The position numbers and the translations under genes were made by a program. A stretch of DNA of 47,539 bases, taken from NCBI GenBank assembly GCA_947626915.1, contig CANQUA010000015.1, positions 1 through 47,539 on the forward strand, read 5' to 3'. The stretch comes from an uncultured Lachnospiraceae bacterium. Lineage in GTDB: Bacteria; Bacillota; Clostridia; Lachnospirales; Lachnospiraceae. The notes under the pieces are model-generated. The model saw nothing but the letters and a program-made list of their open reading frames with translations, was not told the origin of the DNA and ran no database searches. Below, one piece after another: positions 39,903 to 46,599 of this stretch (positions are counted from its first letter, which is position 1; each line of letters begins with the position of its first letter).

Positions 39903-40571
39903 TTATGATTCCGGCCGCTCTGTCTGTTCATCCCAGTCAGACGGAGCCGTCTGAGGATTCACATACCCTTCATACTCTTTCAGTCTCTTCCTGCACACAG
40001 CATAATCAGGAATCTGCTCCTCCACGATCCTCCAGAACCGGGGCGAATGATTCATCTCCCGGCGGTGGGCCAGCTCATGCACCACCACATAATCCTGCAG
40101 CTCTTCCGGGAGCAGCGCCAGGACCCAGTTAAAGTTCAGATTTCCCTTCGCGCTGCAGCTTCCCCAGCGGGTGGCCTGCTGCCGGATCGCGATCCTGCCG
40201 TAGGTCACGCCCATCCGCGCGGCCCAACGGCCGGCTTTTTCCGTCAGGACCCGCCGCGCTTCCTTCCGGTACTGTCGGATCTCCGCCTCCGTGAACATGG
40301 GCCGCTCTTCCATCCGCTCCCGCGCTCTGGTCAGATGCTCGGATACCCATTCCCGGTGCTCCTCCACAAACGCCCTGACCTGCCGCAGGGGCATCCGAAG
40401 AGGACAGCGCACCTCCACCCGCCCGTCCCGCGTCACCTGAAGGGACACGGTCCTGCGGCCGGAGCGGACGATCTCATATTCGAAGCTTCCGTCTTCCGCT
40501 GCGAAAACAGCCTTTACAGGCATCTTCCCATATTCTTCATGAACCGGCTGCGGCAAATTTCCACGGCTCAC
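39903..40571 (-). CDS. YgjP-like M48-type metallopeptidase
   Basis: This 222-residue protein has the zinc motif VVHELAHRREMNHSPRFW (HExxH plus a downstream His), preceded by RWGSCSAKGNLNFNW, which together define the YgjP/SprT-like family. It is cytoplasmic and its substrates are unknown. The GTG start at 40571 overlaps the stop of the serine hydrolase gene (GTGA), so coupling is likely; an internal ATG at 40523 would give a shorter protein closer to the family domain boundary. Confidence 0.85.
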   Translation of the reverse strand: MSRGNLPQPVHEEYGKMPVKAVFAAEDGSFEYEIVRSGRRTVSLQVTRDGRVEVRCPLRMPLRQVRAFVEEHREWVSEHLTRARERMEERPMFTEAEIRQYRKEARRVLTEKAGRWAARMGVTYGRIAIRQQATRWGSCSAKGNLNFNWVLALLPEELQDYVVVHELAHRREMNHSPRFWRIVEEQIPDYAVCRKRLKEYEGYVNPQTAPSDWDEQTERPES

Positions 40572-41413
40572 AGCACAAACCGCCCCTCCAGCGCCAGGAA
40601 CTGATCCAGCAGCATCCGGCTGATCCGCCCTCCGAAGACGGTCGCCGGATGGCCCGCATAATACATGGCGTCGCTGAAATTTTTATGGAGCATCACCAGC
40701 ACGTAAGGCCCGTACGGCGTGAAAATAATCCCTCCGTCATTCCGGCAGGCGTTCATGCTCCCGCTCTTGGACGCTACGCGGATCATCACATCGTCCGTAT
40801 TGTCGCTGTCCATATAATACTGAGGGAAATCCCTGGTCAGCATACTGTTATAATGCTGTTTTTTCAGAATCTCCACCATCTGGGCATCGGCTTTCGGATT
40901 TAAAAGCTCTCCCCTGGCCAGCCGGGTATAAATGCTGGCATAGTCCCGGGGCGTCGTCGTGCCCAGTTTATCATACTGATCAAAATGGATCGGATTGTGA
41001 AGCACCGTATCCCTGCAGCCCAGCTTCTGAATGCAGGCGTTGATCGTATCGACTCCCAGATAATCGATCATGATGTTAGTAGCAATGTTGTCGCTGACAA
41101 TGATCATCAGCGTCGCCACATCCTTGACCCGCAGCACCGCGCCCGGATCCAGGGCGTTCAGAACGCCGCTGCCGTCCACCACATGCTCTTCCTTATAGGT
41201 AAGCATCTCATCCAGGCCGGCGTGCCCTTTTTCAATCTCATCAAACAGGCAGGCCAGGATATACGTTTTCACCGTGCTGGCTGTCTCAAATTTTTCATCC
41301 GCTCCCATGGAAATGATATTCCCGTGGAAGTCGTCGGCATAAATGCCCACAAACCCATCATAACTTTTCAGTTCCGCCTCGATCCGCTTTTCCAGCGTCA
41401 GTCTCGCGTCCAT
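40568..41413 (-). CDS. Serine hydrolase of class A beta-lactamase fold, no signal peptide (second copy)
   Basis: This 281-residue protein shows the SxxK-SDN-KSG set: ASTVKTYIL (Ser/Lys), IVSDNIATN and ASKSGSMN. There is no signal peptide, so it would act in the cytoplasm, unlike secreted beta-lactamases. The Glu of the omega loop in true class A enzymes is not evident. The start at 41413 follows GGAGG at 8 nt, while the upstream ATG at 41434 lies before that site. It is a paralogue of the protein at 43862-44707, of equal length, and flanks a muropeptide gene set; a peptidase or amidase activity on peptidoglycan fragments is inferred. Confidence 0.85.
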   Translation of the reverse strand: MDARLTLEKRIEAELKSYDGFVGIYADDFHGNIISMGADEKFETASTVKTYILACLFDEIEKGHAGLDEMLTYKEEHVVDGSGVLNALDPGAVLRVKDVATLMIIVSDNIATNIMIDYLGVDTINACIQKLGCRDTVLHNPIHFDQYDKLGTTTPRDYASIYTRLARGELLNPKADAQMVEILKKQHYNSMLTRDFPQYYMDSDNTDDVMIRVASKSGSMNACRNDGGIIFTPYGPYVLVMLHKNFSDAMYYAGHPATVFGGRISRMLLDQFLALEGRFVL

Positions 41414-41537
41414 CTTCCGTACCTCCTTTTCCAATCCAAACGACGGTCTGTCCCATCTGCAGGGCCGTCTGCGTTTTGTGTCCCGCGCTTCCTCTGCGCC
41501 GCCCTTCCCGACAGTCGGTTTCCTTGCCCGGCAGCCG

Positions 41538-42425
41538 TCAGAAAATACTCCCCACGGCTTTCATACAGTCCACCAGATCCTGGCGGTAAATCGGGCTGTC
41601 CGGGTTCAGGCTGTTATACACTACGCCGCCGCTGCCGATTCTGCCGGTAGAATGGATGTAAAGTCCGTCTCCCAGATACATGGCCACATGGCCGGGGAAA
41701 AACAGCAGGTCCCCGGCTTTCTTATTTTCTTTTGGTATCTCCTTCAGCGGGAACCCTTCCAGGATCTTCGCGTCCCGGTAGATCAGTATGCCGTTCAGCA
41801 TATAGCTCACCGATACCAGGCCGGAACAGTCGATTCCTGCCGTCGTCTTTCCGCCCCAGCGGTACTGAACGCCCAGATACGCTTTGGCCGTCTCCATTAC
41901 GGCCCGCCGGAACGCTTCCTCATCCGGGATCTCCGCCTGGGGCAGTTCTACCAGCCATGCGCCCGCCTGAGAAAATTTTTTCTCCATCAGGTACTGGTTC
42001 CGCATATAACCGGTCCGGCCGTCCGCCAGACGGACTCTGGCCCAGCCGCGCGTCTCCGATTCCCAGTCCAGCACCTGCACCATACCGCCGCGGAACAGGC
42101 TGATCAGACACACGCCCTGTACCTTCGGCAGAGAAGTCACATCCACGCAGATACCGCTGACCACGCGCAGATCCGAGGCTTCCCACGCCTGCGCCTCTTC
42201 CCGGGTAACCTCCAGGATGTCCTCCTCAGGGAGATAGCCCGTATAATTGTAGAACGTACGTACCGGGAAGAACCTCCCCGCTTCTTTCCCGCCGGTTATC
42301 TCCACGATCATTCCATGGGCCGCTTCATCGGCGATCCCCGACAGGATCTGCCCATTGGATTCCATTTGCTCTGATGCTCCCTCGTAAATGGTGCTGAGCG
42401 CCTTTCTCACAATTCCATATCTCAT
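41538..42425 (-). CDS. NlpC/P60-family peptidase with SH3-like domains
   Basis: This 295-residue protein has two SH3-like beta domains in the first about 170 residues (RPFFP-like FFPVRTFYNYTGYLP, RVRLADGRTGYMRNQYL) and a C-terminal NlpC/P60 domain with the catalytic Cys in GIDCSGLVSVSY and His in PGHVAMYLGDG. This is the layout of YkfC-type gamma-D-glutamyl-L-diamino acid endopeptidases that cut cell-wall peptides. No signal peptide is visible, consistent with work on imported peptides. The start 42425 follows GGAGGG. The partner epimerase gene is immediately upstream. Confidence 0.9.
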   Translation of the reverse strand: MRYGIVRKALSTIYEGASEQMESNGQILSGIADEAAHGMIVEITGGKEAGRFFPVRTFYNYTGYLPEEDILEVTREEAQAWEASDLRVVSGICVDVTSLPKVQGVCLISLFRGGMVQVLDWESETRGWARVRLADGRTGYMRNQYLMEKKFSQAGAWLVELPQAEIPDEEAFRRAVMETAKAYLGVQYRWGGKTTAGIDCSGLVSVSYMLNGILIYRDAKILEGFPLKEIPKENKKAGDLLFFPGHVAMYLGDGLYIHSTGRIGSGGVVYNSLNPDSPIYRQDLVDCMKAVGSIF

Positions 42426-42459
42426 AAAAAGTCCCTCCCGCGCGGAATCCGCGCCTGTC

Positions 42460-43545
42460 TCACTCTTCAAAGCCCGGTACTCCTATGATCCCGATGCCAG
42501 GCGTCTCGTTCATAATGATGCGGCTGCCCTCATAAACCGGCCCGCCTGTGTACGGGTCGACCCGGCACAGGGACGGTCCGTCCAGATCCGCCCTGGTAAT
42601 CACGCCCTTGCCCGCCGCCAGATGAGCCGCCGCGCTGACCGCGATCTTGCTCTCCAGCATACAGCCGATCATGCACTCCACGCCGTAACTCTCCGCGATC
42701 GCGCAGACCTTCAGCGCCTCATAGATGCCGCCTGTCTTCATCAGCTTAATATTGATCAGATCCGCCGCCCGTTCCTGGATCAGGCAGATCGCGTCCTCCG
42801 GCGAAAATACGCTTTCATCCGCCAGAATTTTCGTATTCACCTGACCGGTCACATATTTCATGCCCGCAAAATCATGGGCGGACACCGGCTGTTCCACCAG
42901 ATCCATCTCAACGCCCATATCCTCCAGCGTGCGGATGATACGCACCGCGTCCTTGGCTGTCCACCCCTGATTGGCGTCGATGCGCAGTTTCACATCCGGC
43001 CCTACCGCGTCGCGGATCGCGCGGATCCGCTCGATATCTTTCAAACTCTCCTTTCCCACCTTGATCTTCAGGATATTAAACCCCTGGGCCACCGCTTTCA
43101 GACTGTCGGAAACCATCTCGTCAATCTCGTTGACGCTGATGGTCAGATCCGTCTCAATCTCTGTCCGGTTTCCGCCCAGTACTTTATAAAGGGGCTTTCC
43201 GCAGGATTTGGCGAACAGATCGTAAACCGCCATATCCACCGCGGCCTTGGCGGAGGTATTTTTCAGGATACAGCCATGAAGCTTTCGCATGATGCCGTCC
43301 AGATTGTCTGTCTCCATTCCGATCAGGCTGGGCGCGATGAACTCCTCAATGGCGCAGCGGATGGAGCCCTTCGTATCCCCGGTAATGACTGCCGTAGGCG
43401 GCGCTTCCCCGTATCCGGTCTCTCCGTTGTCCGCCGTTACCCGCACCACGATGTCATTGACATGATCCACGGTCCGCAGTGCCGTTTTAAAAGGCGTGAC
43501 CAGCGGAATATTCACTTCTGCCGTATCGATCCTCGCTATTTTCAT
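42460..43545 (-). CDS. L-Ala-D/L-Glu epimerase (dipeptide epimerase, enolase superfamily)
   Basis: This 361-residue enzyme has the muconate-lactonising fold: the base in ILKIKVG, metal ligands in LRIDANQGW, VEQPV and LADESVF, and the second lysine in INIKLMKTGG. These match the L-Ala-D/L-Glu (YkfB-like) epimerases that convert D-Glu dipeptides from the cell wall to usable L-forms. The specificity is supported by the NlpC/P60 gene 34 nt downstream. The start 43545 follows GAGGGG; an ATG at 43563 lies upstream of that site. Confidence 0.9.
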   Translation of the reverse strand: MKIARIDTAEVNIPLVTPFKTALRTVDHVNDIVVRVTADNGETGYGEAPPTAVITGDTKGSIRCAIEEFIAPSLIGMETDNLDGIMRKLHGCILKNTSAKAAVDMAVYDLFAKSCGKPLYKVLGGNRTEIETDLTISVNEIDEMVSDSLKAVAQGFNILKIKVGKESLKDIERIRAIRDAVGPDVKLRIDANQGWTAKDAVRIIRTLEDMGVEMDLVEQPVSAHDFAGMKYVTGQVNTKILADESVFSPEDAICLIQERAADLINIKLMKTGGIYEALKVCAIAESYGVECMIGCMLESKIAVSAAAHLAAGKGVITRADLDGPSLCRVDPYTGGPVYEGSRIIMNETPGIGIIGVPGFEE

Positions 43546-43559
43546 ACTATGTACGCCCC

Positions 43560-43859
43560 TCATTCCTTATTTGCGAACTTGCCTGTCACAGTCAGCGTCT
43601 TCCGGAGCTGCTCAATCATGCCCAGCCAGATCGTCCTGACCTCTTCCAGACGCTCCGCGTCAAACTGCATTTGATTTTTATACTCTTCAAAAATTCCGTT
43701 CATCCTGTCCGATTCCGGCGGTATCCCGATCGCCCGAAACGCCTCGCCGTATTTCCGGCGCAAAGACTCCAGTTCGTTCAATTCCCCGCCAATTTGCTCC
43801 AGGACATATTTCATTTGCTCCAGGATACTCTCCGCCGTATCCAGATCCAGCTCCTTCAT
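43560..43859 (-). CDS. Uncharacterised 99-residue helical protein
   Basis: This 99-residue acidic protein is almost wholly helical with heptad-like leucines (ESILEQMKYVLEQIGGELNE, EEVRTIWLGMIEQLRKTL). There is no signal peptide or membrane segment. It is packed tightly: 2 nt after the upstream serine hydrolase and 14 nt before the epimerase, so it belongs to the operon and probably forms a complex with, or regulates, one of its enzymes. No family is recognised; it is not clearly a WXG100 protein. Confidence 0.7.
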   Translation of the reverse strand: MKELDLDTAESILEQMKYVLEQIGGELNELESLRRKYGEAFRAIGIPPESDRMNGIFEEYKNQMQFDAERLEEVRTIWLGMIEQLRKTLTVTGKFANKE

Positions 43860-43861
43860 AA

Positions 43862-44707
43862 TCAGTTCGCCTCCGTAAATTCCCTGTAAATAGGTTCCCA
43901 GCGCAGTTCTCCCCTTGCCAGCACGCCGGGTGAATGTTCCAGATACAAATAATACGTGATCTCCGCCATGACCCGCTCAAATACCGGCGTATCCGTCTCA
44001 TTTCCGCAGAAGCACACTACAAACGGCTTCTCCGCGTAGACAATTCCCACGTCGTGGGTAATCCCCGTATCCTCGCCGGTCTTGTGAGCCACCAGCGGCG
44101 CATCTTCCAGCGCCCGCAGATAAAACGGCATCTTGCTGTCGTACTGCTGGTCCTTCAGAATCGACAGCATCTTTTCGCTGGCCGCCCCGCTGACCGTTTT
44201 CCCGTTGTAAATATCGGTCAGCAGCCTCCCAACGCCGCGGGCCGTGATCAGATTCTGAATTCCCCGCCTGGCTTTTTCCCAGTCGTACATTTTCCGGCGG
44301 AGCCACGGATCCTCATAGCCCATGACCCGCACTTCCGCGTTGATTTTCTCCATGCCAAGGAGATCGATCAGAATGTTGGTGGCGGTATTGTCGCTGAAAA
44401 TAATCATCAACGTGATCAGATCCATGACCGTCACCTCCAAACCCTCGTGCATATAGGCCACCGCACCGCAGGACGGTACGTAATATTCCTTTTTCATCAC
44501 AACAATCCGGTCCGGATCCAGCTCTCCCCGTTCAATCATGGCGAAAGCCGCTGCCATAATATAGAGTTTGATCACGCTGGCGGCATATAATTTCTCATCG
44601 CCCCGCCAGGAAAATTCTTCGCCGCTTTCCAGCCCTCTGTAATAAAACGCGATGGAGCCGGGCGCCTGTTCCAGCTTCTGCTCCACCTTTTTCCAGTGAA
44701 TCCCCAT
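43862..44707 (-). CDS. Serine hydrolase of class A beta-lactamase fold, no signal peptide (first copy)
   Basis: This 281-residue protein has the SxxK-SDN-KTG set: ASVIKLYIM, IFSDNTATN and AHKTGEDTG. No signal peptide is seen, so it is predicted cytoplasmic. It is the paralogue of the protein at 40568-41413. The start 44707 follows GGGGGA at good spacing; the frame opens further upstream (44761) but that part is Arg/Lys/Gly-rich and lacks support. It follows the GntR regulator gene by 87 nt and leads the muropeptide gene set. Confidence 0.85.
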   Translation of the reverse strand: MGIHWKKVEQKLEQAPGSIAFYYRGLESGEEFSWRGDEKLYAASVIKLYIMAAAFAMIERGELDPDRIVVMKKEYYVPSCGAVAYMHEGLEVTVMDLITLMIIFSDNTATNILIDLLGMEKINAEVRVMGYEDPWLRRKMYDWEKARRGIQNLITARGVGRLLTDIYNGKTVSGAASEKMLSILKDQQYDSKMPFYLRALEDAPLVAHKTGEDTGITHDVGIVYAEKPFVVCFCGNETDTPVFERVMAEITYYLYLEHSPGVLARGELRWEPIYREFTEAN

Positions 44708-44794
44708 AACCTTCCCCCTTTTCTTATGTTTTGCCCGGCCGCCGCGGCGGTACGCGGACAAATGTTTCTCTTTTCTGCCTTTCAGCCCGGTCCG

Positions 44795-45502
44795 TCAAAT
44801 ATCAAATTTCCCGACCGGGTCCTCCTCCTCAAAATACTCCCGGTATTCCACATCGATCTGGTGACGCATACGCTTCATACTGAAATACAGATGATCCTTC
44901 AAAACCGTCTCCATCCCCGCGATGTCGCGCTGTTCCAGCCGCTCCACCAGCTGCTCATGCTCGTGAACGATCCGGGTAAAGTCTGTCTCCGTCACAAAAT
45001 CCAGCATCCGGAACCGGGTATAATGAAGCTGCTGCTCCTGCAGAAGGGCCCACAGCTTCCCTTTCTTCGTGGCGTCGAACCAGCAGCCGTGCAGTTCCGC
45101 GTCCAGGCGGTAGAACTGCTCCGGTTTGAAATCGCCGGTCTGGATCAGGGCCTTTTGCTTGCGGATCAGGTAATACACATCCTCCATCAACATCGGCGTC
45201 GCAATCTTGGAGAAGTCCCGCATCACCATTGTTTCCACCGCCACCCGCATATAGATCATCTGCTTGATGTTGCTGAGGCTTAAAAGCGTCACATAAATGC
45301 CCCGGTAAGGAACCGTAACCACAAAGCCCTGCTCCTGGAGCAGGCGGAGGGCGTCGCGGACCGGGGTCCTGGAAACCAAAAAGCGCTCGCAAATTTCATT
45401 CTCTTTTATCAACTGTCCCGGTTTTAACTCCAGATCCAGAATCTCCTGTTTCAGGACCTGATACACCATATCTTCCCGACTCTTATACGCCGCATCTTCC
45501 AT
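44795..45502 (-). CDS. GntR-family regulator with FCD domain (FadR subfamily)
   Basis: This 235-residue regulator has an N-terminal winged helix (REDMVYQVLKQEILDLELKP, ICERFLVSRTPVRDALRLL, GFVVTVPYRGIYVT) and a C-terminal all-helical FCD effector domain with metal-ligand type histidines (AELHGCWF, HEHEQL, KDHLYFS). Such proteins often sense sugar acids. ATG 45502 follows GAGG; the frame is open to 45583 without a ribosome binding site. It lies between kduI upstream and the muropeptide set downstream and is the best candidate to bind the TTGTATACAA palindrome in front of kduI. Confidence 0.9.
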   Translation of the reverse strand: MEDAAYKSREDMVYQVLKQEILDLELKPGQLIKENEICERFLVSRTPVRDALRLLQEQGFVVTVPYRGIYVTLLSLSNIKQMIYMRVAVETMVMRDFSKIATPMLMEDVYYLIRKQKALIQTGDFKPEQFYRLDAELHGCWFDATKKGKLWALLQEQQLHYTRFRMLDFVTETDFTRIVHEHEQLVERLEQRDIAGMETVLKDHLYFSMKRMRHQIDVEYREYFEEEDPVGKFDI

Positions 45503-45724: not shown

Positions 45725-46567
45725 TCATTTCAGTTCCGTCGGCTTTAAATTGTCCATATCGTCGAAAGCCAGATTTTCTCCGCCCATGGCCCAGATGAAG
45801 GTGTAGTTGGAGGTACCCGCTCCGGCATGAATACTCCAGGAAGGACTGATGACCGCTTCCTCATTCTTCATCACAATGTGCCGCGTCTCGCCGGGCTCGC
45901 CCATCAGATGGAAGACCACATTATCCTCCGGGACCTCGAAATACATGTATACCTCCATGCGGCGCTCATGGGTATGACAGGGCATTGTATTCCAGATGCT
46001 GCCCTTCTCCAGCACGGTCATGCCCATGGAAAGCTGACACGTTTTCAGCACGTCCGGATGAATGAACTGGTTAATGGTCCGCCGGTTGGACGCGGACGGA
46101 TCGCCCAGGGTCCGCTTGGCCGCATCCTGAATGGAAATGAACGTGGTCTTGTAAGAGGTATGAGCCGGTGCGCTGACCATATAAAACTTCGCCGGACGCT
46201 CCGCGTCGTCGCTGGAAAAAAGCACCGCCCTCGTGCCTTTGGTAATGTAGAGACAGTCTTTATATCCAAGGGAAAATGTCTCGTCGTCCGCCACGATCCT
46301 GCCGGGGCCGCCAATATTGAAGATACCGATCTCACGGCGCTCCAGGAAGAAATGCGTACCAAAATTCTTCCAGCAGTCGATTCCCTTGTCAATAGATACC
46401 TGCTCCGTCGTCGGCATACAGCCCATCGTCACCATACGGTCTACATGAGAATATACAGCATGCACCTCATTGGGCGCATAGAGATTCTGAATCAGGAATT
46501 CATTTCTCAGTTCTTCCGTCGTATAACGTTTTACGTCCCTCTGATTTGCAGAATATCGAATATCCAT
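45725..46567 (-). CDS. kduI: 5-dehydro-4-deoxy-D-glucuronate isomerase
   Basis: This 280-residue cupin enzyme converts 5-keto-4-deoxyuronate to 2,5-diketo-3-deoxygluconate in pectin and glycosaminoglycan breakdown. The N-terminus MDIRYSANQRDVKRYTTEEL is the family signature, and the metal site is readable in CHTHERRMEVYMYFE and a later His in SWSIHAGAG. The AGAGGAGG site fits ATG 46567 better than the ATG at 46576. Promoter and a perfect palindrome lie just upstream. The other kdu/kdg genes are not in the window. Confidence 0.97.
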   Translation of the reverse strand: MDIRYSANQRDVKRYTTEELRNEFLIQNLYAPNEVHAVYSHVDRMVTMGCMPTTEQVSIDKGIDCWKNFGTHFFLERREIGIFNIGGPGRIVADDETFSLGYKDCLYITKGTRAVLFSSDDAERPAKFYMVSAPAHTSYKTTFISIQDAAKRTLGDPSASNRRTINQFIHPDVLKTCQLSMGMTVLEKGSIWNTMPCHTHERRMEVYMYFEVPEDNVVFHLMGEPGETRHIVMKNEEAVISPSWSIHAGAGTSNYTFIWAMGGENLAFDDMDNLKPTELK

Positions 46568-46599
46568 CTTGATCATCCTCCTCTGATAAGATTTGTATT

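Follow-up and report, generated by a model that had tools for sequence, protein, structure and literature searches.

The contig CANQUA010000015.1 of an uncultured Lachnospiraceae bacterium (assembly GCA_947626915.1), analyzed over 47,539 nucleotides and called the window here, carries on its minus strand a four-gene core that very probably serves the breakdown of murein peptides. The core consists of a PF13354 serine hydrolase (SH1, 43862..44707), an L-Ala-D/L-Glu (dipeptide) epimerase (Epi, 42460..43545), an endopeptidase of the YkfC/DPP VI type with SH3 and NlpC/P60 domains (NlpC, 41538..42425) and a second PF13354 serine hydrolase that is PBP-A-like (SH2, 40568..41413). An earlier note on this DNA had placed these genes in a seven-gene set led by a GntR regulator, and had proposed the hydrolases as an alternative peptidase for cell-wall peptides. 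All seven open reading frames (ORFs) were found on the minus strand in the order it named, at the positions given here and below. The reading as a cytoplasmic murein-peptide set is supported, and SH1 and SH2 are probably peptidases rather than β-lactamases, judged from the missing Glu166, the class A cut-off that neither reaches, and the epimerase/NlpC context.

To follow the set in relatives, we scanned genome contigs with an SH2 alignment, which gave 517 SH2 relatives, and kept the best 80 as loci, a choice that leans to close kin. By title these loci are clostridial, except for three Paenibacillaceae bins (L047, L055 and L080, perhaps misnamed) and one "Firmicutes bacterium" (L103). The earlier note suggested co-occurrence of the seven genes as a check, and for the core genes it was borne out: an epimerase more than 50% identical to Epi is present in 41 of the 80 loci, with SH1 within 500 bp of it in 37. 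Directly upstream of SH2 lies an NlpC or M19 dipeptidase gene in 60 of the 74 loci with at least 1.5 kb of upstream sequence. Because of these two proximities, the SH1-Epi-NlpC-SH2 grouping is more than chance. Where at least 9.6 kb upstream of SH2 was available (51 loci), NlpC was found in 44, OppD in 42, OppB in 38, SH1 in 37, Epi in 35, M19 in 13, and GntR and kduI in 6. The order SH1-Epi-OppA-B-C-D-F-NlpC-SH2 is seen in Hungatella hathewayi, H. effluvii and several Lacrimispora, and L051, L053, L061 and L077 have the Hungatella/Lacrimispora order with no epimerase detected. In other loci SH2 is preceded by an M19 dipeptidase, or a third hydrolase is present, which we named SH3 (Anaerocolumna). 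SH2 stands beside alanine racemase (Alr) and an M20 peptidase in L066, L069 and L071, and beside M55, M20, Alr, Opp and S66 genes in L101. In a Lacrimispora xylanisolvens record (L057, 3035-5700), OppA and OppB are in several pieces, reflecting frameshifts or sequencing errors.

Sampling by taxonomy gave a broader view of the association. An epimerase at E 1e-40 was detected in 17 of 120 family genomes; besides the window there are 16, and a serine hydrolase lies in the fetched locus of 6 of them. When PF13354 matches of at least 120 bits were counted by coordinates, 13 of 15, the window included, lay within about 10 kb of an epimerase (one at 10.1 kb); we chose this cut ourselves, and the next match scores 119.5 bits. 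At a cut of at least 78 bits the count becomes 13 of 23. The exceptions above 120 bits are G006, with its epimerase on a different contig, and G105, which has no epimerase at the threshold and has M55, Alr and Opp genes nearby. Among 391 genomes of the class, 28 have an epimerase at E 1e-60. The 29 class-level epimerase sites outside the window's own genome include PF13354 in 10, S66 in 3, both in 2 and neither in 18. NlpC accompanies 8 of the 10 sites with a serine hydrolase vs 1 of the 19 without (p 8.6e-5). In L114, L119, L126 and L129, the serine hydrolase, Epi, NlpC and M55 genes are joined by a lysA-like gene, which exceeds the NCBIfam cut-off of 297.9 in L119 (483.4) and L129 (448.8); the calls in L114 and L126 come from a two-sequence profile. 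The presence of a diaminopimelate decarboxylase gene within a cluster argues well, if circumstantially, for a diaminopimelate-containing substrate; lysA was not found in any of the 80 SH2 loci. Also common to the L119 and L129 clusters are a divergent 112-aa protein and an amidohydrolase, which in L129 matches NF006560 below its cut-off.

The two SxxK-SDN-K(S/T)G hydrolases recognized in the earlier note both belong to PF13354 (Beta-lactamase2, 195.7 bits for SH1 with SVIK, SDN and KTG; 196.1 bits for SH2 with STVK, SDN and KSG). SxxK, SDN and K(T/S)G are present in all 36 SH1 rows (the window and 35 SH1 that passed a length and stop filter) and all 53 SH2 rows (the window and 52 of the 80 SH2, selected by hand with near-identical ones dropped). 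Against the NCBIfam class A β-lactamase model the hydrolases score 84.8 and 90.7 bits, below the cut-off of 200. An omega-loop comparison with PBP-A, its L158E variant and LRA-5 gave no Glu166 equivalent: this position is Ile in the window's SH2 and Ile/Leu in SH2 generally, and Met in the window's SH1 and Met/Leu in SH1 generally, in alignments that contain gaps and are ambiguous for SH1 against the L158E variant. The position of PBP-A Glu96 is occupied by Gly81 or Ser79, and in SH2 it is Gly. None of the seven products has an N-terminal hydrophobic segment by hydropathy, which is clear in a control OppA lipoprotein, in agreement with the earlier note that none has a signal peptide.

SH1 and SH2 are 31% identical and form separate clades across genera with support of 100/99 (SH1) and 100/100 (SH2) in a tree of 51 rows (window, chosen loci and class-level hits) that is rooted for drawing only and for which the program warned of meeting long branches. 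A recent tandem duplication was rejected, as each has its own clade across genera. In the most probable alternative the roles are split: the D-Ala carboxypeptidase would be SH2 alone, with SH1 hydrolyzing a dipeptide, either the L-Ala-L-Glu product or a different one. The closeness of SH1 to Epi noted above speaks for it, as do the separate, well-supported clades, the conserved SH1-specific stretches KTGED and HDVG and the loci with Alr or M55 that have SH2 and no SH1. Against it, PBP-A, of the same fold, releases D-Ala according to the available part of PMC11189452, and in some class-level SH-Epi-NlpC clusters none of the other D-Ala carboxypeptidase families looked for is present. We regard split roles as unlikely, roughly a one-in-five matter.

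The other two core enzymes point to murein peptides. The best solved relative of Epi is 1JPM (E 3.8e-114), which we take to be YkfB of B. subtilis; Pfam MR_MLE N- and C-terminal domains are both matched, and no NCBIfam epimerase model is reached (best 268.5 vs a cut-off of 500). K160-x-K162, D190, E218, D243, K267 and D320-x-D322 are kept in 40 of 40 rows; presumably the Lys pair is catalytic and the acids line the metal site. NlpC matches the Pfam SH3 and NLPC_P60 domains, and its conserved residues include Cys200, His246 and Tyr61 in 60 of 60 rows and Asp218 in 55 (Asn in 5). Both sets include the window and were filtered by length, stop and identity. The accessible part of PMC2954226 states that Asp256 and the SH3b residue Tyr118 define NlpC/P60 enzymes requiring a free N-terminal L-Ala. 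We judged Asp218 and Tyr61 to be equivalent from motif order and from an alignment to 3NPF, not YkfC itself, and Tyr59 (59 of 60 rows) is a second candidate for the SH3 tyrosine. These features support assignment of Epi as a YkfB-like dipeptide epimerase and of NlpC as YkfC-type. They also bear on the idea that the set scavenges D-amino-acid peptides in general: M55 D-aminopeptidase, M19 dipeptidase, alanine racemase and amidohydrolase genes in related clusters would fit it, and the YkfC-type specificity residues, the YkfB-like epimerase with its DxD and the lysA of some related clusters argue against it, which leaves it improbable beside murein-peptide breakdown.

The earlier note held that import must come from elsewhere, and this is supported: the window cluster has no importer, and an Opp system of the kind found inside the cluster in relatives lies on another contig. 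Opp genes are missing between Epi and NlpC both in the window and in its closest relatives (L026-L034 where complete, and G114). A search of the genome for OppA gave a single match, on contig C18, followed by OppBCDF. Searched back, this OppA matched once in each of G046, G033 and G024, every time the OppA of the cluster itself (48-53% identity), and once, at 80%, on another contig of G114; G037 and G105 gave no match. Of the 26 genomes examined in the genus, 10 carry a close epimerase (≥90%), 10 this OppA and 8 both (Fisher p 0.001), and in the 11 high-quality ones the same five carry both (Fisher p 0.002); neither p is corrected for descent. Because the C18 OppA matches cluster OppAs and co-occurs with the epimerase in the genus, OppABCDF on C18 is probably the importer of the murein set there.

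Gene content, conservation, motif states, fold and co-occurrence are observed; every reaction and substrate of the following scheme is what we infer from them. Peptidoglycan stem peptides imported by an Opp-type ATP-binding cassette (ABC) importer would be broken down in the cytosol by the core. SH2 and SH1 would take D-Ala off the C-terminus of imported penta- or tetrapeptides by a Ser-Lys acyl-enzyme mechanism, and NlpC would, by its family markers, sever L-Ala-γ-D-Glu from the diamino acid. Epi would, like its close solved relative, convert L-Ala-D-Glu to L-Ala-L-Glu, and a dipeptidase (M19 in related clusters) would complete the breakdown. We lean somewhat toward the scheme as a whole, with SH1 and SH2 as peptidases. 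That at least SH2 is a D-Ala peptidase seems more likely than not; that both are is an even call.

Some observations weigh against this reading. None of the eight PF13354 matches scoring between 119.5 and 78 bits has an epimerase hit nearby, and 4EWF ties with PBP-A as a relative of SH2; on these two points we lowered our overall odds very slightly. As to the importer, the identity of C18 OppA to the cluster OppAs is below the roughly 68-80% seen among the Hungatella-Lacrimispora ones. PF13354, the common fold and the SxxK/SDN/K(S/T)G motifs might suggest that both hydrolases are genuine class A β-lactamases lying beside murein genes by chance. This was rejected as very improbable on the missing Glu166 equivalent, the scores under the class A cut-off, the unseen export signal and the synteny that links them to epimerase and NlpC genes in several genera.

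The earlier note also held that the hydrolases take the place of an LD-carboxypeptidase. Indeed, no S66 LD-carboxypeptidase was found among the scanned ORFs of the window gene set. However, one S66 gene is present elsewhere in the genome, at C20, and six related loci (L112, L114, L069, L071, L101 and L102) have both S66 and PF13354 enzymes; strict replacement was therefore rejected, and replacement is at most partial. The best solved relatives of the C20 protein are MccF, over residues 3-140, and its N-terminal part scores nearer MccF than LdcA; against the NCBIfam muramoyltetrapeptide carboxypeptidase model it scores 72 (cut-off 378). LD-carboxypeptidase activity elsewhere in the genome is thus possible.

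The closest known system is dpp-ykf of B. subtilis, comprising the LD-carboxypeptidase YkfA, the epimerase YkfB, the NlpC/P60 enzyme YkfC and the dppB-E importer (accessible part of PMC2954226), with DppE binding murein tripeptide (PMC10009517, an editorial, in part). The epimerase relative, the NlpC/P60 type and the peptide ABC importer linked in relatives are common to both; the window cluster differs in having two PF13354 hydrolases, no S66 gene and no importer. PBP-A (Tll2115) of Thermosynechococcus is, in the excerpt of PMC11189452, a DD-carboxy/endopeptidase with an N-terminal membrane anchor and a link between Glu96 and amidated D-iGln; according to that paper it occurs only in cyanobacteria. 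SH1 and SH2 resemble it in fold and in the absence of Glu166, whereas SH2 is clostridial, anchor-free and has Gly at the Glu96 position. For the class A-like LRA-5 and 4EWF we met no peptide-recycling role in this analysis; SH1 sits in an epimerase operon. Similar in role to the Opp genes is the muropeptide ABC importer YejBEF-YepA, which serves peptidoglycan recycling in Agrobacterium, a Gram-negative (PMC9790009, in part). None of the literature matches listed described, in its title or abstract start, a murein-peptide operon with a PF13354 member. This is a known pathway in clostridial form, with an enzyme type not met in it among those matches. Tentatively, and short of an even chance, Clostridia may have two old cytoplasmic PBP-A-like Ser-Lys families that trim D-Ala from imported murein peptides, as penicillin-binding carboxypeptidases do outside, and that are the sole D-Ala carboxypeptidase of the recycling cluster in several lineages. 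PBP-A-like enzymes would then cease to be a cyanobacterial speciality, and the clusters would identify the importer and enzymes for wall-peptide uptake in Lachnospiraceae. Clostridial PF13354 genes are easily taken for resistance genes; since the top-scoring ones in the sampled family are mostly near a dipeptide epimerase and SH1 and SH2 have no Glu166, top-scoring genes of this kind may be murein-peptide enzymes rather than β-lactamases.

The remaining three genes of the proposed seven-gene set did not hold up as members. First, the YgjP-like metallopeptidase (39903..40571, minus strand; Pfam 175.4 bits) is a neighbor from a ygjP-recJ block: recJ usually follows, and other genes stand between YgjP and SH2 in Hungatella, Lacrimispora and others. 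Second, the gene for the helical-looking 99-aa protein (43560..43859, minus strand) was found in 2 of 61 genomes, one of them the window's own. It occurs in two species of the genus only, between SH1 and the epimerase with tight spacing, and its nonsynonymous and synonymous divergences (dN 0.163, dS 1.46) indicate purifying selection and hence a real protein. No Pfam family is above cut-off (two weak matches lie under it), and NCBIfam and a phage collection gave no match. Third, the GntR/FCD-type regulator (44795..45502, minus strand; Pfam GntR 60.4 and FCD 54.1 bits) is probably not dedicated to the murein set. It adjoins kduI in all 14 of the 80 loci having it, 7 of which have SH2 without epimerase, SH1 or NlpC, and it may serve uronate use instead.

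On the minus strand the longest ORFs leave 2 bp between SH1 and the 99-aa gene and overlap by 4 bp (99-aa gene-Epi), 11 bp (Epi-NlpC) and 4 bp (SH2-YgjP); likelier inner starts put Epi 14 bp and NlpC 34 bp after the preceding stop. Wider gaps separate GntR from SH1 (87 bp) and NlpC from SH2 (124 bp). The starts of SH1 (44707, an ATG preceded by a purine-rich site), NlpC (42425) and SH2 (41413) were picked by ribosome-binding-like sites, and those of GntR (45502) and Epi (43545) by homologue positions. A promoter scan was at background (4 found vs 4.8 expected), and 13 terminator-like sites were found vs 5.7 expected, mostly intragenic. No operator emerged from the kduI-GntR and GntR-SH spacers, which lack conservation. 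In seven loci (L036, L038, L039, L044, L045, L049 and L060) the order is kduI-GntR-SH2-recJ, in most of them with ygjP as well, and SH1, NlpC and a close epimerase are absent; since SH2 is retained there with the rest of the set missing, it may have its own use. The spacers of the kduI-GntR/FCD pair range from roughly 20 to 300 bp in the 14 related loci. In the window, kduI (5-dehydro-4-deoxy-D-glucuronate isomerase, 45725..46576, minus strand; NCBIfam equivalog 432.5 bits, cut-off 250) is preceded upstream by an 11-pair terminator-like hairpin on the minus strand (46749-46724), a possible upper border of its transcription unit.
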